A stretch of 64,000 bases of DNA from assembly GCF_002968335.2 (NCBI RefSeq), contig NZ_CP134398.1, forward strand, positions 2,666,001-2,730,000, written 5' to 3'. A program made the position numbers and the translations under genes. The DNA is from Mycobacterium sp. ITM-2016-00316. GTDB lineage: Bacteria; Actinomycetota; Actinomycetes; Mycobacteriales; Mycobacteriaceae. Under the pieces are notes generated by a model. It did no database searches. It was not told where the DNA came from and saw only the letters and a list, made by a program, of their open reading frames with translations. Within the stretch, counting starts at the first letter, position 1. Every line of letters starts with the position of its first letter. Of the stretch, positions 14,770 to 25,044 are shown one piece after another.

Positions 14770-15708
14770 GTGAAGCTGGCCCGCCCCGACGTGTTCCATC
14801 CCCGCATCGTGTTCGCCAGTTGCGCGGCACTTCCCGAAGGCGACAGCGATGACGAGGGCCTGGTCGAGGCCCTGCGCACGCGCGGCCTGCCGGTCAGCTG
14901 GAAGTCCTGGGACGACCCGGCCACCCTGGAGGCCGACCTGGTGGTGTTGCGCGCCACGTGGGACTACAGCGAGCGTCTCGACGAGTTCCTGGCCTGGACG
15001 CGAGCGGTGCGCAACCTGCTGAATCCGCCGGACGTGGTGGCATGGAGCACCGATAAGCACTATCTGCTGGATCTGGCGCAGGACGGTCTGCCGATCGTGC
15101 CCACCCGGTACTACGCGGTCGGCGATACGGTGCGGGCGCCCCAGTGCGAGGTGGTGGTCAAACCCGCCGTCGGCGCCGGATCGGTGGGCGCGCAACGGTT
15201 CGTCGACCCCCGTGCGGCGGTGGCCCACGCGCAAGCGCTGCAGGCCGACGACCGCGCGGTGTTGGTGCAGCCCTATGACCCGCGGATCTCCGGCGGGGAG
15301 ACCGCGCTGGTGTTCCTCAACGGTGAACCCTCCCACGCCTTCACCAAGGGTCCGATCCTGCCGCCGGCCGGGCGCGGACCGGAGTTCGAGCAGACCGGGA
15401 CGTTCGCCGCCGAGAAACTCGGCGCCGCCGACCCCGCCGACGAGGTGTGGGAGGTCGGTCACGCCGCGGTGGCCGCGGCGACGACACGGTTCGGCATCCC
15501 GGCACGCGATCTGCTCTACGCGCGCGTCGACGTCATCGGCGGGGCCGATGACCCGCGGCTGCTGGAATTGGAACTCGTCGAACCGTCGCTGGGGTTCCGC
15601 CAGCTCGGCGCGACCGATAAGCGGCGCGCCGAACGTGAGTACGCGCTCGGCGTGGAAGCGGCCCTGATCCGGCTGGGGCTCGGCCCGCTGTCACACCGCG
15701 GGGCGTGA
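14770..15708 (+). CDS. ATP-grasp domain protein
   Basis: 312 residues from GTG at 14770. TATCAT (14758-14763) lies 6 bases before the GTG, suggesting a leaderless transcript. The N-terminus (RIVFASCAALPEGDSDDEGL) is a pre-ATP-grasp Rossmann-like domain with the characteristic RATWDYSERLDEFLAW at about 61-76. The ATP-grasp part shows CEVVVKPAVGAGSVGAQRF near 130-148, LVQPYDPRISGGETALVFLN, and the metal-binding LLELELVEPSLGFRQ near 265-280. The family resembles DcsG, the cycloserine-forming ligase, and many uncharacterised actinobacterial ATP-dependent ligases. It sits where mycobacteria carry the conserved Rv1455-position gene. Substrate unknown. Confidence 0.8.
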   Translation: MKLARPDVFHPRIVFASCAALPEGDSDDEGLVEALRTRGLPVSWKSWDDPATLEADLVVLRATWDYSERLDEFLAWTRAVRNLLNPPDVVAWSTDKHYLLDLAQDGLPIVPTRYYAVGDTVRAPQCEVVVKPAVGAGSVGAQRFVDPRAAVAHAQALQADDRAVLVQPYDPRISGGETALVFLNGEPSHAFTKGPILPPAGRGPEFEQTGTFAAEKLGAADPADEVWEVGHAAVAAATTRFGIPARDLLYARVDVIGGADDPRLLELELVEPSLGFRQLGATDKRRAEREYALGVEAALIRLGLGPLSHRGA

Positions 15709-16052: not shown

Positions 16053-17108
16053 CTAGACCGGGTCGACGAGGCGCACCCCGGTGCGTACATCGAACCGGTG
16101 CACATCACGCGCCGACAGTTCGACCGTGGCGCCAACGGTGACATCGGACAGTGCCGCCGCCTCGACGACGCTGGTCAGCTGCTGATCGGCCGAGCGGACC
16201 GTGATGATGGCCCGCGGCCCGAGCAGTTCGACGAGTTCGACCACCGTGGCCCCGTCCGGGGACGGGGTGAGGATCAGGTCGTCGGCACGCACCCCGATCG
16301 TGACCGCACCCGCATCGGGGCCGCCCACCGTGATCCGCACGCCGGATTCGGTACGCAATTCACCGCCGGTGACCGCGCCGTCGATCAGGTTCATCTTCGG
16401 GCTGCCGACGAAGGTGGCCACGAAGGTGTCGGCCGGTCGGCGGTAGACCTCCTCGGGTGGGCCGGCCTGGGCGATGCGACCCTCGCGCATCACCACGATC
16501 CGGTCCGACAGCGTCATCGCCTCTTCCTGGTCGTGGGTGACATAGAGCGAGGTGATGCCCAGTCGGCGTTGCAGCCGCAGGAGTTCGGTACGGGTCTCGA
16601 CGCGCAACTTGGCGTCCAGGTTGCTCAGCGGTTCATCGAAGAGGAAGACCGCGGGTTCGCGGATGATGGCCCGTCCGATCGCCACCCGCTGCTGCTGCCC
16701 GCCGGAGAGATCCTTGGGCTTGCGTTCGACGAGCGCGCCCAGGCCCAGCGATTCGGCGATCTCGTCGGCCCGCCGGAGTGCCTCGGTGCGGGGAATCTTC
16801 TTGGCCCGCAACGGAAAGGCGATGTTCTCCCGCACCGAAAGATGCGGATAGAGCGCGTAGTTCTGGAACACCATCGCGATATCGCGGTCCTTGGGTTCCA
16901 GCGCGGTCACATCGCGATCACCGATCCGGATGGTGCCGGCGCTGACCGCTTCGAGCCCGGCCAGCATGCGTAGCGAGGTGGTCTTACCGCAGCCGGACGG
17001 TCCGACCAGCACCGTCATGCTGCCGTCGGCGAGTTCCAGGTCCAGGTCCGACACCACGCTGGCCGACCCGAACGATTTGCCGACCTTGGAGAAAGTGACC
17101 GATGCCAT
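16053..17108 (-). CDS. CUT1 sugar ABC importer, ATP-binding subunit
   Basis: 351 residues from ATG at 17108; the open frame upstream is antisense to the permease and discarded. A MalK/MsmK/UgpC-type ATPase of carbohydrate importers. Seen: Walker A GPSGCGKT at 36-43, Q-loop FQNYALYPHL, signature LSGGQQQR at 134-141, Walker B VFLFDEP at 154-160, and a C-terminal TOBE/OB region from about 235, the usual regulatory domain of CUT1 ATPases. Last gene of the leftward kinase-SDR-SBP-permease-permease-ATPase operon. A dedicated ATPase means the importer is complete. Confidence 0.92.
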   Translation of the reverse strand: MASVTFSKVGKSFGSASVVSDLDLELADGSMTVLVGPSGCGKTTSLRMLAGLEAVSAGTIRIGDRDVTALEPKDRDIAMVFQNYALYPHLSVRENIAFPLRAKKIPRTEALRRADEIAESLGLGALVERKPKDLSGGQQQRVAIGRAIIREPAVFLFDEPLSNLDAKLRVETRTELLRLQRRLGITSLYVTHDQEEAMTLSDRIVVMREGRIAQAGPPEEVYRRPADTFVATFVGSPKMNLIDGAVTGGELRTESGVRITVGGPDAGAVTIGVRADDLILTPSPDGATVVELVELLGPRAIITVRSADQQLTSVVEAAALSDVTVGATVELSARDVHRFDVRTGVRLVDPV

Positions 17109-17128
17109 TCTTGTACAACCTCGCTTGT

Positions 17129-17944
17129 CTAGTACTTGACCGCGCCGCCGCTGATCCCCTGGACCAGGCGTCGCTGGATGAAGAAGCTGGCGATGACGAC
17201 GGGGATGATCGCGATCATGATCGCCGCGCTCATGGTGCCGATCTGCACTCCGCGGAAGGTGTTGAAGTTCGCGATGGCCACCGGCAGGATCGCCGCGTTT
17301 CCGGGGGCCAGGATCAGCCCATAGAACAGGTCGTTCCACGACAGCGTGAACCCGAAGATGCCGGCGGCGCCGATACCGGGGTACACCTGCGGCAGCACCA
17401 CCATCCGGAACGCCTGCCACCGGGTGAATCCGTCCACCCTCGCCTGCTCCTCCAGTGAGGCGGGCACCGCCTCGAAGAAGCCGATCAGGAACCAGGTGAC
17501 CAGCGGCAGCACGAAGGACAGGTGCGCGAAGATCACCGGTGCCAGGGTGTCGGTCATCCGCAGCGCCTGCGCCATGGTCAGGAACGGGAACACCATCACC
17601 GCCGGCGGAACCACCTGCGCGGCAAGCATGCCGAATCGGGTCAGCGATCCGCCGGCCCGGTACTTGGCGATCACATAGGCGCCCATGCTGCCGACCACCA
17701 GGCTGATCGCCACCGTGATGACGCCGACGAGTGCGCTGCGACCGGCGGCGGCGAACACCCCGGACTCGACCACGGCCTGCCAGTTCGCCAGGCTGGGAAC
17801 GAAGGCGAACAGGAACGGTTCCGACATCTGTTGGGGTGTCTTGAAGCTCGCGAGCGCCACCCAGACGATGGGGAACAGCACGAAGACGAACGCCGCGGTG
17901 AGCACCGCGAGGCGCAGGACCTCGAGGGGGCGGGGCCGGCTCAT
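17129..17944 (-). CDS. CUT1 sugar ABC importer, permease (MalG type)
   Basis: 271 residues with six predicted membrane helices. The cytoplasmic EAA loop, which contacts the ATPase, appears as EEQARVDGFTRWQAFRMVVL near residues 185-205. The N-terminus LRLAVLTAAFVFVLFPIVWV and the FKTPQQM segment are typical of the second (MalG-like) CUT1 permease. The start overlaps the end of the first permease by 4 bases (ATGA), so the pair is translationally coupled. Acts in the cytoplasmic membrane. Confidence 0.92.
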   Translation of the reverse strand: MSRPRPLEVLRLAVLTAAFVFVLFPIVWVALASFKTPQQMSEPFLFAFVPSLANWQAVVESGVFAAAGRSALVGVITVAISLVVGSMGAYVIAKYRAGGSLTRFGMLAAQVVPPAVMVFPFLTMAQALRMTDTLAPVIFAHLSFVLPLVTWFLIGFFEAVPASLEEQARVDGFTRWQAFRMVVLPQVYPGIGAAGIFGFTLSWNDLFYGLILAPGNAAILPVAIANFNTFRGVQIGTMSAAIMIAIIPVVIASFFIQRRLVQGISGGAVKY

Positions 17945-18816
17945 CGGAGGGCACCCTTCTGCGTCGACCCGGCGCGGTTGCGCTCCATGGCGCGGAACGC
18001 CGCCACGATCACGACCAGTACGAGCGCCAGCACGATGAAGGCCATGGCGCTGGCCTGGGCGAGCCGGAAGAACTGGATGCCTTCGAGATACATGAAGTAC
18101 TGCAGGGTCTGGGTGTCGGTGCCCGGGCCGCCTCGGGTGGTGGCGTAGATGTACTCGAAGACCCGAAGGGCATCCAGGCCGCGCAGCAGCACCGCGACGG
18201 TGAGCACCGGGGCCAGCATCGGGATGAGCACCCGGCGCAACCGGTACACCGGGCCGGCGCCGTCGACGCGGGCGGCCTCCATGGGTTGTTTGGGCATGGA
18301 CTCCAGGCCGGCCAAGATCAGCAGCACCATGAACGGCGTCCACTGCCAGACATCGATGAAGGCCAGCGTCAGCAAGGCCTTTCCGGCGCCGAAGAAGTCG
18401 TAATCGGCGCCCACCGCGTGCAGCAGCGCCGGCACTGCGCCGATCTGATCGTTGAGCAGGAAGCGGAAGATCAGCCCGACCGCAATCGGGGTGATGAACA
18501 TGGGCGCGAGCACGATCGCCCGGGACAGGTCCTTGGCCCAGCGTTGCTGATGCAGGGCAAGGGCGAGCGCGAAGCCGAGAACCAGTTCGAGGCTCACCGC
18601 GATCACCACATACATGGCGGTGGTCGCGAAGGCCTCCCAGAACGCCGGATTGGTCAGCGCGCTGGTGAAATTGGCCGCACCCACGAAATCCGGTTGCGTG
18701 CGATCGGTCAGCTTGTAGTCGGTCACTGACAGATACGCCGCGTAGCAGAGCGGGAATCCGACGGCCACGGCGAACAGGGCGAGCAGCGGCGTGAGCATGC
18801 CGTACTTGAACGTCAT
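17941..18816 (-). CDS. CUT1 sugar ABC importer, permease (MalF type)
   Basis: 291 residues from ATG at 18816 (MTFKYGMLTPL); a GTG 9 bases upstream is also possible. Six membrane helices are predicted. The EAA loop reads EAARVDGAGPVYRLRRVLIP near 205-225, and the periplasmic-side SVTDYKL and NFTSALTNPAFWEAF segments are typical of MalF/SmoF-like permeases. It lies between the binding protein and the second permease in the cassette operon. Similarity in style is to the sorbitol/mannitol (Smo) and related polyol importers, but substrate cannot be read from a permease. Confidence 0.92.
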   Translation of the reverse strand: MTFKYGMLTPLLALFAVAVGFPLCYAAYLSVTDYKLTDRTQPDFVGAANFTSALTNPAFWEAFATTAMYVVIAVSLELVLGFALALALHQQRWAKDLSRAIVLAPMFITPIAVGLIFRFLLNDQIGAVPALLHAVGADYDFFGAGKALLTLAFIDVWQWTPFMVLLILAGLESMPKQPMEAARVDGAGPVYRLRRVLIPMLAPVLTVAVLLRGLDALRVFEYIYATTRGGPGTDTQTLQYFMYLEGIQFFRLAQASAMAFIVLALVLVVIVAAFRAMERNRAGSTQKGALR

Positions 18817-18868
18817 CGCGGACACCCCATCCGTCCTGTGCGCCAGGTGGCCGTCGGATTCCCGAGGG

Positions 18869-20167
18869 TCACTGCTGGATCCGCTCCGCAGCTGCCTGCG
18901 CATCACGCAGTGCGTCGGCGACGCTCTTGTTGCCTGCGGCGGCATCGTTGAGCTCGGTGCCGACCGCCTGGATCATCTCTTCGCCGCCCTTGCCCTGGGT
19001 GAGCGGGGCCGCGTCGGCCAGGATCTCGCCGACCGTCTTGTAGTAGTCGGCGCCGTACCCGTCGGCGAGCACCTGCGGGTTGTTCAGCGAGCTCTCCCGG
19101 ATCACGGCACCACCATCGGCGACCCGCTGCGCGTCGATCTCGGGTGAGGTCACCCACGAGGCGAACGCCCAGGCGGCGTCGGCGGCCCCGGAGTTGGCGG
19201 GAATCGCCCAACTCCAGGACCCCAGAGCGGATTTGCCGCCGGGGATGGGGGCAAGCGCAAACTGTCCGGCACGTTCTGCCGAAGCGCCCTCGGGATCGTT
19301 GAGCGCGGGCAGGTTCCAGTTGTAGCCGATCATCGAGGCGGCCATACCGCCGGAGACGGAGCGGAACGCCTCGTCGAAACCCCAGGACAGGCTGTTCGCC
19401 GGCGCCGCGGTCTTATAGGTCTCGATATAGGCGTCCAGGGCGCGGGCGGCTTCCGGCGTGTCCAGCGAGGGCTTGCCGTCCTCGCCGTAGATCGATCCGC
19501 CTGCGGCGAACAGCCAGTTGGCCCATTCCTCGAAGATCTTGTAGCCGCGCTGGGGCTGCATCGCGATGCCGGCGCGGTCGGCGGTCTTGAGCCGCTGCGA
19601 GGTGGACACCAACGCGTCCAGATCGGTGGGGACACTCTGCCCCGCCGATGTCAGATCACCGGTGTTGTAGATGTAGCCCAGCGCGTAGTTGTAGAACGGG
19701 ACGCCGTAGGTGGTGCCCTCGACGTCGGTGATCGCCGTCAGCGAGTCGAAGAAATCTTCCGGCTGGTAGTCCGGGGTGGCCGCGATCCGGTCGCCCAGCG
19801 GCTGCAGGAAGCCGGCGTCGGCGAAATCGTCCATCCAGGGGTTGTCCACCACGATGAGGTCGTAGGCGGGCTGCGAGGCCTGGAACGAGGACACCAGGCG
19901 GTCCCGCATCTGGTCGAAGGTCATCGTCTCGATCTCGACCTTGATATCGGGATACTTCTGATTGAACTGCCCGACAAGGCCTTTGACGATGTCGGTGTCG
20001 GGGACGTTCTCCATCAACACCCGCACCGTGGCGTTGGTGTCGGTGGGAATCTCACCGAGACCCGACGAGCTCTGCTCGCCGGATCCGCCGCTGCCTGCGC
20101 AGCCGGCGAGGGTCAGGCTGGTGGCGGCGATGATCGCGGGCAACCAGCGCAAGGTTGGGATTTTCAT
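18869..20167 (-). CDS. Extracellular sugar/polyol-binding lipoprotein
   Basis: 432 residues from ATG at 20167. Signal peptide with lipobox LAGC (C23), then a Ser/Gly-rich tether and a cluster B solute-binding fold: TVRVLMENVPDTDIVKGL, DLIVVDNPWMDDFADAGFL, and TYGVPFYNYALGYIYNTGDL. The late SWSWAIPANSGAADAAWAFA is typical of CUT1 binding proteins. It captures the substrate outside the membrane and delivers it to the two permeases encoded downstream. A 52-base gap separates it from the upstream SDR gene. Confidence 0.92.
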   Translation of the reverse strand: MKIPTLRWLPAIIAATSLTLAGCAGSGGSGEQSSSGLGEIPTDTNATVRVLMENVPDTDIVKGLVGQFNQKYPDIKVEIETMTFDQMRDRLVSSFQASQPAYDLIVVDNPWMDDFADAGFLQPLGDRIAATPDYQPEDFFDSLTAITDVEGTTYGVPFYNYALGYIYNTGDLTSAGQSVPTDLDALVSTSQRLKTADRAGIAMQPQRGYKIFEEWANWLFAAGGSIYGEDGKPSLDTPEAARALDAYIETYKTAAPANSLSWGFDEAFRSVSGGMAASMIGYNWNLPALNDPEGASAERAGQFALAPIPGGKSALGSWSWAIPANSGAADAAWAFASWVTSPEIDAQRVADGGAVIRESSLNNPQVLADGYGADYYKTVGEILADAAPLTQGKGGEEMIQAVGTELNDAAAGNKSVADALRDAQAAAERIQQ

Positions 20168-20219
20168 GGTCCTCTTCTCTTTGTCCGGGTGGATCGAGCG
20201 TGTGCGGGCGATGGTGGAC

Positions 20220-21008
20220 TCAATCCATGTAGGCACCGCCGTTGACCGACAGTGCTTCTCCGGTGATGAACCGGGCATCTTCGGAGACCAGGAACGCCAC
20301 CGCACGGGCGACGTCGTCGGGGGTCTGCAGGCGACCCAGGGGAGTGGCGTCGACCCAGGACTTGCGCACACCGTCGGGAGTGGATCCGGTGAGCAACGCC
20401 TCCCACTCCAGCTCGCGGGACTGCATCGGAGTGGCCACGAAACCGGGGCACACGCTGTTGACCGTGATGCCCTGGGGGGCAAGCTCGAAGGCCATCGCCT
20501 GAGTGAGCCCGAGGACGCCGAACTTGGAGGCCACGTAGTCCGCCAGGAATGGCACCCGGCCCTGTTTGGCCGCCATGGACGCGGTGTTGACGATGGTGCC
20601 GCGCACTCCGGTGCGGATCATTGCCCGCGCGGCGGCCTGGCCGCACAGAAAGACACCCTTGAGGTTGATGTCGAGGCTGCGGTCCAGTTGGTCGGTGGAC
20701 ACGTCGACGAAGCGCGCCATCGCCGAAATCCCCGCGTTGCTCACCCAGGCGTGCAGTCCCACCCGATCGGCCACGTCGTCGGCGAGTTGCGCTGATCCGG
20801 CGGCGTCGGTGACATCGAGTCGGGCGGCCTCGTGCCCGGTCCCGCTCAGCACCGCACGGGTCTGCTCGGCGGCCTCGGCGTCGATATCGGTGACGATGAC
20901 CCGCCAGCCCCGCTCGGCGAGGGTGGCGGCGATGGCGCGTCCGATGCCCGAACCCGCGCCGGTGACGACGGCGGTCTGGGTGCTGGCGGTGGTGTCGGGG
21001 GTGGTCAT
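20220..21008 (-). CDS. SDR family dehydrogenase (probable polyol/sugar oxidation)
   Basis: 262 residues. Classical short-chain dehydrogenase: TGAGSGIG at 16-23, an acidic residue after beta-2 (VTDIDAE, D40/D42), which favours NAD over NADP, SNAGIS at 89-94, and the catalytic triad S143, Y157, K161 in MAAKQGRVPFLADYVASK. The C-terminus ends SVNGGAYMD. Next to a sugar importer and an FGGY kinase it most likely oxidises the imported polyol to a ketose, or acts on a sugar at C2/C3. Start overlaps the kinase stop by 4 bases. Substrate unproven. Confidence 0.87.
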   Translation of the reverse strand: MTTPDTTASTQTAVVTGAGSGIGRAIAATLAERGWRVIVTDIDAEAAEQTRAVLSGTGHEAARLDVTDAAGSAQLADDVADRVGLHAWVSNAGISAMARFVDVSTDQLDRSLDINLKGVFLCGQAAARAMIRTGVRGTIVNTASMAAKQGRVPFLADYVASKFGVLGLTQAMAFELAPQGITVNSVCPGFVATPMQSRELEWEALLTGSTPDGVRKSWVDATPLGRLQTPDDVARAVAFLVSEDARFITGEALSVNGGAYMD

Positions 21009-22492
21009 GGCCGTGCCTTTCGGGCGATGCGGTGGGAGATGGGGGTCAGCACGTCGCCGAGTTCGCGCCACTGGGCGTAGGCCTCGGCGTAGCGGTCGAC
21101 GTTCTGCGGGTTGGGCACGACAGGTTCGCCGACGGTCTGGAACATCGCGGTGTTGTCCCAGCCGTCGAGCAGCCCGGTGCCGACCGCGGCGATCACCGCG
21201 GCACCCAGTGAGGCGCCCGGGTGACCGACGATCGGGGACAGCGGGGTGCCCAGCACATCGGCGAGGATCTGCTTCCACAGCACCGACCGGCTGCCTCCGT
21301 TGGTGACCAGCGCCCGGTGCAATGGCACACCCATCGAGGCGAACACCTCGGTGTGGTGCCGGAAACCGTAGGCGATCGCTTCCAGCACGGACCGGTACAT
21401 GTCCGCGCGGTTGTGGGCGAGGTCGAGTCCGACGAAGGCGCCGCGTAGATCGGGGTCGTGCAGGGGGCTCTTCTCGCCGAGAAAGTAGGGCAGACAGAGG
21501 ATTTCGCCCGGGTTGCGGGTGTCGGCCTCATCGTCGAGGTCCACCAGGTCGATACCGCCGGACAGGGTCTGGAACCAGCGGATCAGGCTGCCGCTGGTGG
21601 CCATGCAGCCGTTGGGCAGCCACCGTCCGGGCACGGGGTGCGCGTCGAGATAGAGCCGGGCATCGATGACCGGCTGATCGGCGGCGACCAGGATGTCCCC
21701 GGCGCCACCGAGTTTCACCAACCAGTCACCCTCGGCGTTGATGCCTGCGGCGTAGGCCGAGAGCACATGGTCGGCCCCGCCGACGATCAGCGGCAGGCCG
21801 GCGGTCAGTCCGGTGGCCTCGGCGGCCGCGACGCTGAGCGCGCCGGCTTGGGCGCCGGGGGCGAGTGCGCCGGGCACCAGTTCCGCGGACAGGCCTGCCG
21901 CGGCGTACATCGGCTCGAAGCGTTCACCGGTGATCGTGCCGAGCCCGGCTTCCAGTGCCCAGTTCAGCTCCACATGCGCGGGCGCGCCGAGGGCCATCAG
22001 CACCCAGTCGTAGGAGCCGACCAGGTGTGTCGTGCGGCTCCAGGTCTCGGGTTCGTGGCGTTGCAGCCACAACGCGGTCGGGCCCACCGATTGTTGGGTC
22101 ACCGCGGAACCGGTTGCGCGCAGCACGGTCTCGTCGTCGAGCGCGCGCTGGAGTTCGGTGATCTCGGCGGTCGCGCGGGCGTCGTTCTGGAGCAGGGCGC
22201 GCCGGACCGGGGCGCCGGTACCGTCCACCGGCACGACGGCCGGGACCATACCGGTGGTGGACAGTGCGCCGATCCGGTCGGGGGTGACGCCGGAGGTGGC
22301 CAGCACGTCGCGGATGCCGGCGTGCACGTTGCGCAGCCATTGGGTCGGATCGGCCTCGGCGTGGCCGGGGGCATCGGAGAACAGCTGAGCGTCGTGGGTG
22401 GCCTGGGCGACGATGCGGGCTCGGCCGATATCGACGAGCACGGTCTTGGTACCGGTGGTGCCGATATCAATGCCGATGGTGAACTCCGGCAT
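21005..22492 (-). CDS. FGGY family carbohydrate kinase (xylulokinase-like)
   Basis: 495 residues from ATG at 22492, preceded by GAAGGGAT; an in-frame ATG at 22519 would add nine residues. Seen: phosphate-1 loop GIDIGTTGTK at 7-16, QNDARATAEI near 100 (catalytic Asp region), the GGADHVLSAYAAGI adenosine-side loop, and the C-terminal VTNGGSRSVLWKQILADVLG with the conserved GG.S..W.q..AD. The closest named relatives by motif are xylulose and other ketose kinases. It would phosphorylate the ketose made by the coupled SDR, trapping it in the cell. First gene of the leftward catabolic operon. Confidence 0.9.
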   Translation of the reverse strand: MPEFTIGIDIGTTGTKTVLVDIGRARIVAQATHDAQLFSDAPGHAEADPTQWLRNVHAGIRDVLATSGVTPDRIGALSTTGMVPAVVPVDGTGAPVRRALLQNDARATAEITELQRALDDETVLRATGSAVTQQSVGPTALWLQRHEPETWSRTTHLVGSYDWVLMALGAPAHVELNWALEAGLGTITGERFEPMYAAAGLSAELVPGALAPGAQAGALSVAAAEATGLTAGLPLIVGGADHVLSAYAAGINAEGDWLVKLGGAGDILVAADQPVIDARLYLDAHPVPGRWLPNGCMATSGSLIRWFQTLSGGIDLVDLDDEADTRNPGEILCLPYFLGEKSPLHDPDLRGAFVGLDLAHNRADMYRSVLEAIAYGFRHHTEVFASMGVPLHRALVTNGGSRSVLWKQILADVLGTPLSPIVGHPGASLGAAVIAAVGTGLLDGWDNTAMFQTVGEPVVPNPQNVDRYAEAYAQWRELGDVLTPISHRIARKARP

Positions 22493-22539
22493 GCCATCCC
22501 TTCGGTTGATGTCCGCCATGTGGTCGTTGCGGTGGGACC

Positions 22540-22635
22540 ACCATACTTACTCTGTTATATTCTCACAAGACATGTGCGATAGTCACGTTAACTCACGAGA
22601 ACCTCCTGGATTACTGTGATTTAGTAACATACGGT
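22540..22635. promoter_or_regulatory. Divergent cassette promoter with three operator-like sites
   Basis: Three sites share the 5-5-5 form TGTGA-N5-TCACA with few mismatches: 22553-22567 TGTTATATTCTCACA, 22573-22587 TGTGCGATAGTCACG, 22615-22629 TGTGATTTAGTAACA. Their centres (22560, 22580, 22622) are 20 and 42 bases apart, near two and four helical turns. On the minus strand TTGTGA (22568-22563), a 17-base spacer and TATGGT (22545-22540) form a good promoter for the kinase operon. On the plus strand TACGGT at 22630-22635 may serve the BtpA gene. The operators overlap both promoters. Confidence 0.7.
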
Positions 22636-22684
22636 TAACGCAGCACAGCTCGGAAAGACCCAGACGACGCGGAGAGGCGCCCCC

Positions 22685-23500
22685 ATGACCAGTTGGCTCG
22701 ATGATGTATTTGCCGTGCAGAAGCCCGTGATCGCGATGCTGCATCTGGCGGCACTTCCGGGCGATCCCGGCTTCGACTCGGCCGCGGGCGTCCGGGCGGT
22801 CGTGGACCGCGCCAAGGAGGAATTGGCCGCGCTGCAGGAAGGCGGTGTCGACGGCGTCATGGTCTCCAACGAGTTCAGCCTGCCGTACCTGACCAAGACC
22901 GAGCCGATCACCGCCATCACCATGGCCCGGGTGATCGGTGAGTTGCTGCCCGATTTCACCGTGCCCTACGGCGTGAACGTGCTGTGGGATGGTCGCGCCT
23001 CGATCGACCTGGCGGTGGCCACCGGTGCCCAGTGGGTGCGCGAGATCTTCACCGGCGTCTACGCCAGCGATTTCGGCCTGTGGGACACCAACGTCGGCGA
23101 GGTCGCGCGGCACCGGCACCGCGTCGGGGGTGCCGGGGTGAAGCTGCTGTTCAACATCGTCCCGGAGTCGGCGGTCTATCTGGCCGACCGTGATCTGGCC
23201 TCGGTCACCGCCACCACGGTCTTCGCGACGAAACCCGATGCCATCTGCGTGTCCGGTCTGACCGCGGGGGCATCCACCGACGCCCAGGCGCTGCGGGTGG
23301 TCAAGGACAATGCCGGCGCGGTGCCGGTGTTCGTGAACACCGGTGTGCGCGCACACAATGCGGCCGAACAGCTGTCCATCGCCGACGGAGCGGTCGTCGG
23401 CACCTATTTCAAGCAGGACGGGGTGTTCGAGAACCGTGCCGTGGCCTCCCGGGCCGCGGAACTGATGGACGCGGTGAAGGAATTCCGCACGACGTTATGA
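22685..23500 (+). CDS. BtpA/SgcQ family TIM-barrel protein
   Basis: 271 residues, normal family length. Seen: PVIAMLHLAALPGDP near residues 14-28 (the hallmark of BtpA/SgcQ), DGVMVSNEFSLPY, VPYGVNVLWDGRASIDLAVA, WVREIFTGVYASDFGLWD and the late VFVNTGVRAHNAAEQLSIAD with GTYFKQDG, which builds a phosphate-binding-like loop. The family was named for a photosystem I assembly factor in cyanobacteria, but most members are in heterotrophs beside sugar genes (E. coli sgcQ), which suggests an enzymatic role on a phosphorylated sugar. It is divergent from the kinase operon and coupled (ATGA) to the phosphatase-like gene. Confidence 0.85.
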   Translation: MTSWLDDVFAVQKPVIAMLHLAALPGDPGFDSAAGVRAVVDRAKEELAALQEGGVDGVMVSNEFSLPYLTKTEPITAITMARVIGELLPDFTVPYGVNVLWDGRASIDLAVATGAQWVREIFTGVYASDFGLWDTNVGEVARHRHRVGGAGVKLLFNIVPESAVYLADRDLASVTATTVFATKPDAICVSGLTAGASTDAQALRVVKDNAGAVPVFVNTGVRAHNAAEQLSIADGAVVGTYFKQDGVFENRAVASRAAELMDAVKEFRTTL

Positions 23501-24228
23501 CCGAGCAATTGCGCCTGCTGGCGATCGAGGCCGCCCGGCTCGGGGCCGCGGTGTGCCTGCGGCACTGGGGCGAGACAATGCACCTCGCCACCAAGAGCGC
23601 CGCCGGCGATGTGGTGACGGCGGTGGACCGTGCCGCCGAGGAGGCCGTGCGTGCGGCGCTGCTGGAGGCCAGACCCGATGACGGTGTGCTCGGCGAGGAG
23701 CTGCCCGAGCGGATCGGCACCGGCTCGGTGCAGTGGGTCGTCGACCCGCTCGACGGCACCACGAACTACATCCGGCGCCTGCCGCATTTCGGTACCTCGG
23801 TGGCGGCCCGGTCGACGGCCGACGGCAGCTGGCTGGCCGGTGCGGTGTGCGCGCCGGCCCTGGGGATGACCTGGAGTGCCGCCAAAGGTCTTGGTGCTCA
23901 ACTTGACTCAGGATCCGGGGAGGTGCGGCTGCCGCTGGCGCTGATGGAGTCGTCGGTGCGATTGGTGGGCACCGGGCTGTCCTACGATCCCGGCCACCGG
24001 CGCAGACAGTTGCGCGAACTCGGCACCGCGATGGCCGAATACACCGATATGCGCCGATTCGGGGCGGCCGCACTGGATCTCTGCCTGGTGGCGCAGCGCA
24101 GCCTGGATGCCTTCTTCGAGGATGATCTCGCCGTGCACGACTGGGCGGCGGGCGCGCTGATCGCCGAGGAGGCCGGCGCGGTGGTGACGCGCTCCGAAAG
24201 CGCCGGGGCGTCAGCGCGCTGGCGGTGA
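23497..24228 (+). CDS. Inositol monophosphatase-like protein, probably frameshifted at its 3' end
   Basis: 243 residues as read. Mg-dependent phosphatase motifs are intact: GEE at 66-68, DPLDGTTN at 83-90, and HDWAAG at 214-219, supplying the metal-binding acidic residues. The product stops abruptly after EEAGAVVTRSESAG, where family members continue for about 20-30 residues. Adding one G to the G-run at 24205-24208 would instead give GGVSALAVTGRAVRARALTD and a stop at 24272, a 258-residue protein with a normal-looking end. So a one-base deletion (biological or sequencing) is likely. Its start overlaps the BtpA stop (ATGA). It may hydrolyse a sugar or polyol phosphate in the cassette pathway. 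Confidence 0.8.
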   Translation: MTEQLRLLAIEAARLGAAVCLRHWGETMHLATKSAAGDVVTAVDRAAEEAVRAALLEARPDDGVLGEELPERIGTGSVQWVVDPLDGTTNYIRRLPHFGTSVAARSTADGSWLAGAVCAPALGMTWSAAKGLGAQLDSGSGEVRLPLALMESSVRLVGTGLSYDPGHRRRQLRELGTAMAEYTDMRRFGAAALDLCLVAQRSLDAFFEDDLAVHDWAAGALIAEEAGAVVTRSESAGASARWR

Positions 24229-25044
24229 CTGGTCGCGCGGTGCGCGCTCGCGCCCTGACCGATCTGCGTTGACACACACCACCGAGACACCCGCCGCACG
24301 CAGCGCCTCGACCGCCGGATGGGTGGCCGGCCCATCGGTGACCAGGATCGAAATCGCCGACACCGGTGCCACGTTGATCAACTGCACCCGGCCGAGTTTG
24401 GAGGCGTCGGCGGCCACGATCACCCGGTCCGCCGCCCGCATTGCCGCCTGTTTCACGTTGCCTTCCTCGCGGTGGTACTCCGAGGCGCCGCGCTTACCGT
24501 CCACCCCGGCGATGCCCATCACGTAGGTGTCGCAGTTGTACCGCAGGTAGAAGTCCTCGGCCTCGGCGCCGATCAGGCTCAGCTCACCGGGCCGGACCTT
24601 GCCGCCGGTCAGCAGGATCGTGGTGTCCGGTTCGTCGGCGAGTTCGATGGCGACCAGCACGCTGGGGGTGATCACGGTCAGCCCCAGATCGCGGCCCTTG
24701 ACGGCCCGCGCAACCGCCAGCACCGTGCTGCCGCTGTCCAGGATGACGGTCTCGCGCGGGGTCAGCAGGTCGGCCACCGCGTGCGCGATGTGCAGTTTCT
24801 CATCGGCGGAGTCGGCGGCGCGCGCGTCGAAGGACGGCTCGGTCGACTTGCCGCCGAATGCGATCGCGCCACCGAGTACCCGGCGCGCGACGCCCTGCTC
24901 CTCGAGCCGCTCGATATCGCGACGGATGGTCATCTCGGACACGTCGAATTCATCGGCCAGGGTGGCGAAGTCGACCTCGCGGTCGGTATGGATCCGCGCG
25001 GCGATCGCTGCTCGGCGCGCGTGCGCGTTCAGGCCGGGGGTCAT
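24211..25044 (-). CDS. DeoR family transcriptional repressor of the cassette
   Basis: 277 residues. N-terminal DeoR HTH with VDFATLADEFDVSEMTIRRD (about 24-43), then the sugar-phosphate-sensing DeoRC domain: VILDSGSTVLAVARAV, TILLTGGKVRPGELSLIGAEA, VMGIAGVDGKRGASEYHREE and VIVAADASKLGR, with the usual phosphate-binding GSGS/TGG loops. Such regulators release DNA when they bind a phosphorylated sugar, here presumably the kinase product. A TAGGCT -10 lies 6 bases before the ATG (leaderless), and a palindrome matching the cassette operators overlaps its -35 region, implying autorepression. The 3' end overlaps the phosphatase gene by 18 bases. Confidence 0.9.
   Translation of the reverse strand: MTPGLNAHARRAAIAARIHTDREVDFATLADEFDVSEMTIRRDIERLEEQGVARRVLGGAIAFGGKSTEPSFDARAADSADEKLHIAHAVADLLTPRETVILDSGSTVLAVARAVKGRDLGLTVITPSVLVAIELADEPDTTILLTGGKVRPGELSLIGAEAEDFYLRYNCDTYVMGIAGVDGKRGASEYHREEGNVKQAAMRAADRVIVAADASKLGRVQLINVAPVSAISILVTDGPATHPAVEALRAAGVSVVCVNADRSGRERAPRDQSPPAR

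Follow-up and report, generated by a model that had tools for sequence, protein, structure and literature searches.

A DeoR-linked polyol-type gene cassette carrying a BtpA/SgcQ-family protein in a soil mycobacterium

The window analyzed here is a stretch of 64,000 nucleotides (contig NZ_CP134398.1, positions 2,666,001 to 2,730,000) from the 5.99 Mb genome of the soil bacterium Mycobacterium sp. ITM-2016-00316, and its subject is a cassette of nine genes that includes a BtpA/SgcQ-family protein, hereafter BtpA. The other eight genes encode a CUT1 importer (binding lipoprotein, two permeases, and ATPase), an SDR dehydrogenase, an FGGY sugar kinase, an IMPase-family phosphatase, and a DeoR-family regulator. 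We propose, with a probability of about 0.55, that the cassette serves, under the control of DeoR, to take up and break down a sugar alcohol or a similar small polyhydroxy compound, with BtpA acting on a phosphoketose. The new element is BtpA within a CUT1/SDR/FGGY cassette of polyol type; the pairing of a kinase with a phosphatase is already known. The nearest cassette is that of Mycolicibacterium frederiksbergense LB 501T, where BtpA is 100% identical and the eight other proteins are 96–99% identical.

Common operators and conserved linkage

Three operator sites unite the cassette. Two of them lie in the 192-base gap between the divergent FGGY and BtpA genes, and the third is a palindrome in front of deoR (Table 1). 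Within the window, TGTGA-N5-TNACA is matched in four rows, two from single sites and two from the palindrome, which counts on both strands, versus 0.24 expected, and none of 100 shuffled sequences reaches four rows, which bears out the shared operator motif reported by the first-pass annotation of this DNA. Genome-wide, the exact form TTGTGA-N5-TNACA yields four rows, three in the cassette (two sites, one on both strands) and one elsewhere; this sole other exact site lies outside the window at G000:C1:5364949-5364964. With up to one mismatch, the genome gives 17+21 rows versus 17+22 in the control, and only the exact motif is informative because the one-mismatch count shows no excess.

The related loci used for comparison (L002–L081) are the 80 top-ranking ones among 142 matches, all retrieved via BtpA; many close relatives are included, and contig ends shorten 14 of them. 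The operator motif produces 104 match rows in these loci, versus none in the reversed sequences. The 48 positive loci do not represent independent events because so many of the 80 are closely related. The rows amount to 84 distinct sites, all of which precede the start of a DeoR, BtpA, or FGGY gene by at most 300 bases. DeoR would act as the repressor of the cassette, and regulators of this family usually sense phosphosugars. A scan for sigma-70-like promoters found no site versus 0.8 expected and is uninformative; terminator-like matches in the same scan number 12 versus 2.8 expected.

Presence of the individual genes in the 80 loci was scored by identity thresholds. The binding protein, SDR, FGGY, BtpA, and DeoR occur together in 58 loci, 57 of which also hold the ATPase and both permeases. 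Counted singly, DeoR is present in 74 loci, SDR in 64, the ATPase and the MalG-like permease in 62 each, the MalF-like permease and the binding protein in 61 each, FGGY in 60, and the IMPase in 25. The order DeoR-FGGY-binding protein-permeases-ATPase-SDR-BtpA runs along one strand in 31 loci, and BtpA is divergent in others. Orthologous sets are also carried by plasmids of Thermus thermophilus (L146, L148), Labrenzia (L147), and Shinella (L151), with identities to the window proteins of 41–43% for FGGY, 48–51% for SDR, 33–38% for the binding protein, and 43–45% for BtpA. A Rhizobium leguminosarum plasmid (L149), for which PLSDB lists few genes, matches all cassette proteins except the binding protein and the IMPase. 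The earlier assignment of BtpA to the regulon is upheld by this linkage, kept in 58 of the 80 loci and on plasmids, and by the common operators; the description of a polyol-type CUT1/SDR/FGGY cassette finds support at the family level. The family itself, PF03437, has a patchy distribution: it was detected in 36 of 148 same-genus genomes, in 29 of 396 genomes sampled across the phylum (above the cut-off in 23), and in 5 of 14 well-known genomes that served as controls (above the cut-off in 3).

The cassette is an insertion of about 9 kb that entered a housekeeping locus, between two conserved neighbors, in the lineage of the window, because ctaA directly adjoins the homolog of the gene at 14770–15708, with no cassette between, in 15 of 17 other same-genus genomes in which ctaA was found (18 searched). 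The two exceptions are a short contig and a genome without the matching neighbor. In five relatives (L013, L014, L016, L017, L019), the cassette sits on the opposite side of this gene pair. The product of the gene at 14770–15708 has 312 amino acids and no Pfam match at E 0.001. A further observation concerns Mycolicibacterium litorale F4 (L062:10001-10813), where BtpA stands alone, with no cassette gene nearby. The rest of the cassette was probably lost there, because BtpA lies between the same flanking gene clusters as the full cassette of L043.

The order, strands, and families of the nine genes agree with the first-pass annotation in both coordinates and profile scans, and all nine proteins exceed their Pfam cut-offs. 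The four-base overlaps it described recur at three junctions, inside both operons: FGGY/SDR (21005–21008), permease/permease (17941–17944), and BtpA/IMPase (23497–23500). In addition, deoR is convergent with the phosphatase gene and overlaps its tail by 18 bases. The nine genes had been called one unit, which holds for regulation, given the common operator; the layout shows three apparent transcription units rather than one operon, namely FGGY-SDR-binding protein-permeases-ATPase on the minus strand, BtpA-IMPase on the plus strand, and DeoR on the minus strand.

Table 1. Genes and operator sites of the cassette, in window coordinates
Feature	Position	Strand	Remarks
CUT1 importer ATPase, UgpC/MalK type	16053..17108	-	PF00005, OB_MalK, TOBE_2
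CUT1 permease, MalG-like	17129..17944	-	PF00528
CUT1 permease, MalF-like	17941..18816	-	PF00528
CUT1 binding lipoprotein	18869..20167	-	profile match; lipobox LAGC
SDR dehydrogenase	20220..21008	-	profile matches; YxxxK and acidic residue after beta-2
FGGY sugar kinase, xylulokinase-like	21005..22492	-	FGGY_N and FGGY_C over cut-off; GxDxGT, GGxD motifs
Operator 1, TTGTGAGAATATAACA	22553..22568	-	divergent FGGY/BtpA promoter region; kept in related loci
Operator 2, CTGTGATTTAGTAACA	22614..22629	+	divergent FGGY/BtpA promoter region
BtpA/SgcQ family protein	22685..23500	+	PF03437, TIGR00259; SgcQ-like residue set
IMPase-family phosphatase	23497..24228	+	PF00459; metal-site motifs GEE, DPLDGTTN, HDWAAG
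DeoR-family regulator	24211..25044	-	helix-turn-helix and DeoRC sensor domain
Operator 3, palindrome TTGTGAATTAATCACAA	25065..25081	.	20 bases 5' of deoR start codon

A proposed route and its optional phosphatase

In the route that we propose, the CUT1 importer would bring in a sugar alcohol, which the NAD-type SDR would oxidize to a ketose; the FGGY kinase would phosphorylate the ketose, and BtpA would convert the resulting phosphoketose, by epimerization/isomerization or by aldol cleavage, for entry into central metabolism. The IMPase may dephosphorylate side or overflow products, and DeoR may sense a phosphosugar of the pathway and control both divergent promoters as well as its own. Import, oxidation, and phosphorylation follow one another in this order in known polyol pathways. 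We infer both the substrate class and the order of steps; BtpA is placed after the kinase, on a phosphosugar, because its fold is of the phosphate type, because kinases or phosphotransferase systems (PTS) stand in otherwise unlike BtpA clusters, and because DeoR is kept with BtpA.

Most catalytic motifs of these enzymes can be read directly from the proteins (Table 1). The SDR is probably an NAD-dependent polyol dehydrogenase, judging from its sequence; the pattern S-x12-Y-x3-K was not found in it, and its YxxxK and post-beta-2 acidic residue were read by eye. The ATPase scores 426 of 432 bits against the UgpC subfamily model, slightly below the cut-off, and the top Foldseek matches of the binding lipoprotein are 5iai and 4rya, the latter called Sorbitol by its depositors. 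Naming of the kinase, dehydrogenase, and phosphatase by NCBIfam was dropped, as every equivalog score of these three proteins falls below its cut-off; the kinase, for example, reaches 279.9 bits against Xylulokinase XylB (TIGR01312, cut-off 380.25). The phosphatase scores 157.8 bits against PF00459 (cut-off 27) but 118.6 of 332 and 124.9 of 275 bits against the inositol-1-monophosphatase and histidinol-phosphatase equivalogs, respectively. WDxAAG itself was not found in it, and HDWAAG is present.

Two points weaken the first-pass reading of the phosphatase. First, no IMPase was found near BtpA in 55 of the 80 loci, and among the 57 full cassettes 33 lack one of at least 40% identity inside the locus, so that the pathway probably does not depend on the IMPase. 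Second, the pairing of a kinase with a phosphatase, which had been taken to suggest a dead-end phosphate or a novel route, is not novel, since the smo locus of Sinorhizobium meliloti already has both as possible members, as the accessible part of PMC10433430 has it. The claim that the IMPase belongs to the same regulon as BtpA stands in part: its homologs recur in 25 of the 80 loci in four arrangements, and it is optional. The gene directly follows btpA in the window and in L002–L019, lies beyond the ATPase in L043, L046, L054, L056, and L060, is found downstream of btpA at some distance in L045, and stands beside deoR in L047. A phosphatase function appears to recur with unrelated proteins and yet to be dispensable, because IMPase, HAD, or metallophosphoesterase-like proteins alternate and many full cassettes lack the IMPase. 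A HAD phosphatase adjoins FGGY in Labrenzia and Shinella instead of the IMPase, another adjoins BtpA in L122, and a metallophosphoesterase-like protein lies between BtpA and FGGY in L123. In a tree of the family, the fork between the cassette IMPases and the genome paralog at 2442206 stays open, and the branches are long.

A different account of the same genes is an ordinary pentitol pathway, in which SDR and FGGY alone would lead to xylulose- or ribulose-5-phosphate, and BtpA and the IMPase would be accessories that repair dead-end phosphates such as polyol phosphates. An SDR and an FGGY kinase suffice for xylitol, ribitol, or arabitol according to general pathway knowledge, and a phosphatase that is optional and drawn from different superfamilies is what an accessory would look like; the HAD of Labrenzia has the hexitol phosphatase HxpB as its nearest NCBIfam model, although far below the cut-off (77 of 191 bits). 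We consider this account rather unlikely, since BtpA and DeoR are kept when SDR and FGGY are swapped, as shown by the wide retention of DeoR among the 80 loci and by the 12 loci with a different FGGY described below. This argument carries a caveat, namely that cassettes without BtpA are invisible in a set in which every locus was retrieved via BtpA.

The BtpA protein and its other contexts

BtpA scores 272 bits against PF03437 (cut-off 30) and 285.5 bits against TIGR00259 (cut-off 153.4). Its predicted structure is a phosphate-type TIM barrel with a pLDDT of 95. No relative in the PDB was found by sequence (best E 0.23), and in the structural comparison many phosphate barrels tie, with Z of 16.8–18.3 across 50 entries; the reaction cannot be named from the nearest fold because of these ties, and that approach was rejected. 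Reactions of the 3-hexulose-phosphate-synthase, KDPG-aldolase, or ribulose-phosphate-epimerase kind were considered. Those families are marked by a DxKxxD motif, a lysine on beta-6, and the metal residues of ribulose-phosphate epimerase, none of which is apparent in the BtpA sequence. No residue set deciding among epimerization, isomerization, and aldol cleavage was found in the protein.

Alignment separates two BtpA types. The window type has Glu120 and Glu161, versus Asn and Lys in the other type, which is represented by 11 rows, none of them cyanobacterial, and which has Phe at position 63 in 5 of the 11. We tentatively propose that BtpA proteins of the SgcQ type are a separate class of enzymes with a catalytic residue set not shared by others (E63, E120, and E161 together with N62, D102, and R119 at the ends of the barrel strands), and that they catalyze one undescribed ketose-phosphate step. 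This step would be a node common to polyol (SDR/FGGY), PTS, and peptidase-linked routes. If DeoR sensed this node, DeoR and BtpA would therefore travel together while the upstream enzymes change.

Alternatively, BtpA could be a non-enzymatic stabilizing or regulatory partner, like the cyanobacterial BtpA with glutamyl-tRNA reductase, an interaction reported in the available portion of PMC11449065. Likewise, 'PTS chaperone-like features' are ascribed to SgcQ in the sections at hand of PMC13343008, and the window protein exceeds the TIGR00259 cut-off. Against NF045918, the equivalog model for the Photosystem I biogenesis protein BtpA, it reaches only 141.7 bits, far below the cut-off of 400, and the cassette has neither a glutamyl-tRNA reductase gene nor a PTS. 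Together with the strand-end residue set, which differs between the aligned types, this makes a non-enzymatic role improbable.

BtpA also occurs in clusters of other composition. Twelve loci have a different FGGY (30–34% identical) directly followed by a protein of a single cluster, M29-type by Pfam on the L072 representative only; DeoR (54–67%) and BtpA (74–80%) are retained in all twelve. Four of these loci (L020, L023, L027, L040) have an MFS importer, and the operator motif is present in them; the remaining eight (L065, L067, L069, L072, L074, L076, L078, L079) have a CUT2 importer and a Dak-cluster protein, and the motif was not found in them. Another FGGY occurs with an M42 protein in L029. 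The sgc operon (L144) combines M42, PTS IIB and IIC, SgcQ, a ribulose-phosphate-epimerase-like protein, and DeoR. PfkB kinases stand in the BtpA clusters of L122, L126, L127, and L129, and L122 has an M20-like protein below the cut-off. Peptidase-like genes (M29-type, M42, M20-like) thus recur across the BtpA clusters of the 12 M29 loci, L029, L144, and L122. Among 24 phylum-wide loci (L111–L134), a kinase or PTS lies near BtpA in eight by BLAST or Pfam (L112, L122, L123, L125, L126, L127, L129, L132); L130, L131, and L133 resemble L132 by gene lengths alone, no reading frames were called in L111 and L124, and neither a kinase nor a PTS was seen in the remaining 11, where the Pfam scan of neighbors covered L115 and L128 only.

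Single clusters provide further detail. In L132 (6122-10327), BtpA stands beside a sorbose/mannose-type PTS and an IF-2B-type protein whose best NCBIfam model, below the cut-off, is ribose-1,5-bisphosphate isomerase. The cluster L129 (9535-13316) resembles an operon for Amadori products, with BtpA beside a PfkB kinase, a xylose-isomerase-like barrel, and a SIS protein that comes closest to fructoselysine-6-phosphate deglycase but stays below the cut-off. On R. leguminosarum pRLN4 (L150:5726-11289), BtpA and FGGY lie beside two isochorismatase-family hydrolases, an allophanate hydrolase, and a CUT1 importer, which suggests that the substrate of that cluster is a sugar with a ureido or amide group attached. 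In L143 and L145, CUT1 is accompanied by an isomerase, PIG-L, Gfo/Idh/MocA, and an alpha/beta hydrolase, and no kinase is annotated in the cluster.

Such neighbors would be expected if the importer took up a sugar bound through an amide or acyl link and BtpA acted on the sugar once it was set free. The M29-type protein of the 12 BtpA/FGGY loci, M42 in L029 and sgc, the sub-cut-off M20-like protein of L122, PIG-L in L143 and L145, and the hydrolases of L150 all fit this idea, as does the induction of sgc on a subset of nitrogen-containing substrates, described in the available text of PMC13343008. The cassette holds no such hydrolase, however, and none is annotated in the Thermus, Labrenzia, and Shinella stretches shown, and for the window this source of the sugar has a low probability. 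Chance, the outcome named beforehand as speaking against the cassette, might be suspected from the presence of BtpA in a minority of same-genus genomes and from the insertion of the block in a housekeeping locus, but a BtpA and an IMPase merely lying beside a polyol operon have a negligible probability: for BtpA, chance linkage is contradicted by the neighborhood comparison (58 of 80 loci, three plasmid genera) and rejected on the conserved gene sets, operator sites, and plasmid orthologous sets, with linkage kept across three phyla and neighbors rearranged but retained. For the IMPase, too, chance is decidedly the lesser prospect; by our own arithmetic, an IMPase gene would fall within 10 kb by chance in about 2% per lineage because the genome has six PF00459 genes (eight rows, read as six genes).

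The polyol-type cassette makes the chemistry of BtpA testable: the binding protein can lead to the substrate, SDR and FGGY to the substrate of BtpA, the strand-end positions supply residues to change, and the operator can be used for inducers.

Comparison with known systems

The first-pass annotation knew of no described pathway with this gene set. A pathway with an assigned BtpA reaction was indeed not found in the open-access literature on BtpA/SgcQ, a search outside which most subscription papers lie; the other part of the claim needs revision, as a pentitol link has already been proposed for sgc (see below). PMC9007349 (PLoS Genet 2022) has zero occurrences of BtpA and polyol terms, and PMC11433714, in the part available, names the BtpA family only. 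PF03437 occurs in several of the control genomes and across the phylum, yet the sole molecular role found in the passages at hand is the interaction with a tetrapyrrole enzyme in cyanobacteria. There, according to the portion of PMC11449065 at hand, BtpA interacts with and stabilizes glutamyl-tRNA reductase and takes part in photosystem biogenesis, and that portion describes no sugar operon for it. The window protein has the family name in common with it (over the PF03437 and TIGR00259 cut-offs) but scores far below the cyanobacterial equivalog.

The plasmid cassettes of Thermus, Labrenzia, and Shinella resemble that of the window in their orthologous binding protein, permeases, ATPase, SDR, FGGY, BtpA, and DeoR. 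Labrenzia and Shinella differ in having the HAD phosphatase in place of the IMPase, and Thermus differs in having an isomerase-like TIM barrel, with no annotated phosphatase in the stretches shown. No studies of these plasmid cassettes were found in the open-access literature on BtpA/SgcQ and mycobacterial polyols.

The smo locus of S. meliloti serves sorbitol, mannitol, and D-arabitol. As set out in the accessible part of PMC10433430, it comprises the CUT1 importer SmoEFGK, the sorbitol dehydrogenase SmoS, and SmoC, a negative regulator that resembles EryD of the DeoR type, with SMc01502 (putative phosphatase) and SMc01503 (putative carbohydrate kinase) as possible members. On this description, smo and the window are alike, at the family level only, in the CUT1 importer, the SDR polyol dehydrogenase, and the DeoR-type regulator. 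In contrast, smo has a second dehydrogenase, MtlK, and no MtlK-type gene is among the nine genes of the window. The smo paper (PMC10433430) nowhere uses the word BtpA.

The sgc operon of E. coli and Salmonella shares BtpA itself: SgcQ is 59% identical to the window protein and has the same residues at positions 63, 120, and 161. In both systems, BtpA is accompanied by a DeoR regulator, an uptake system for sugar, and an enzyme for phosphosugars. They differ in that sgc has a PTS instead of CUT1 and FGGY, and an M42 metallopeptidase and a ribulose-phosphate-epimerase-like protein instead of SDR and IMPase; no PTS components were found among the cassette genes, where CUT1 ABC genes take their place. 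The passages available of PMC5797941 call sgc a PTS for an unknown sugar. In a 2026 study of E. coli sgc (PMC13343008), as far as its text is available, a pentitol link is proposed as a hypothesis, the authors regard substrate and functions as not yet established, and sgc mutants (sgcC and sgcX are named) have no growth defect on the carbon sources tested. The polyol cassette proposed here would agree with this pentitol idea and differ from the accessible account in the role of SgcQ, which would be an enzyme rather than chaperone-like; an assigned BtpA reaction would also bear on sgc.

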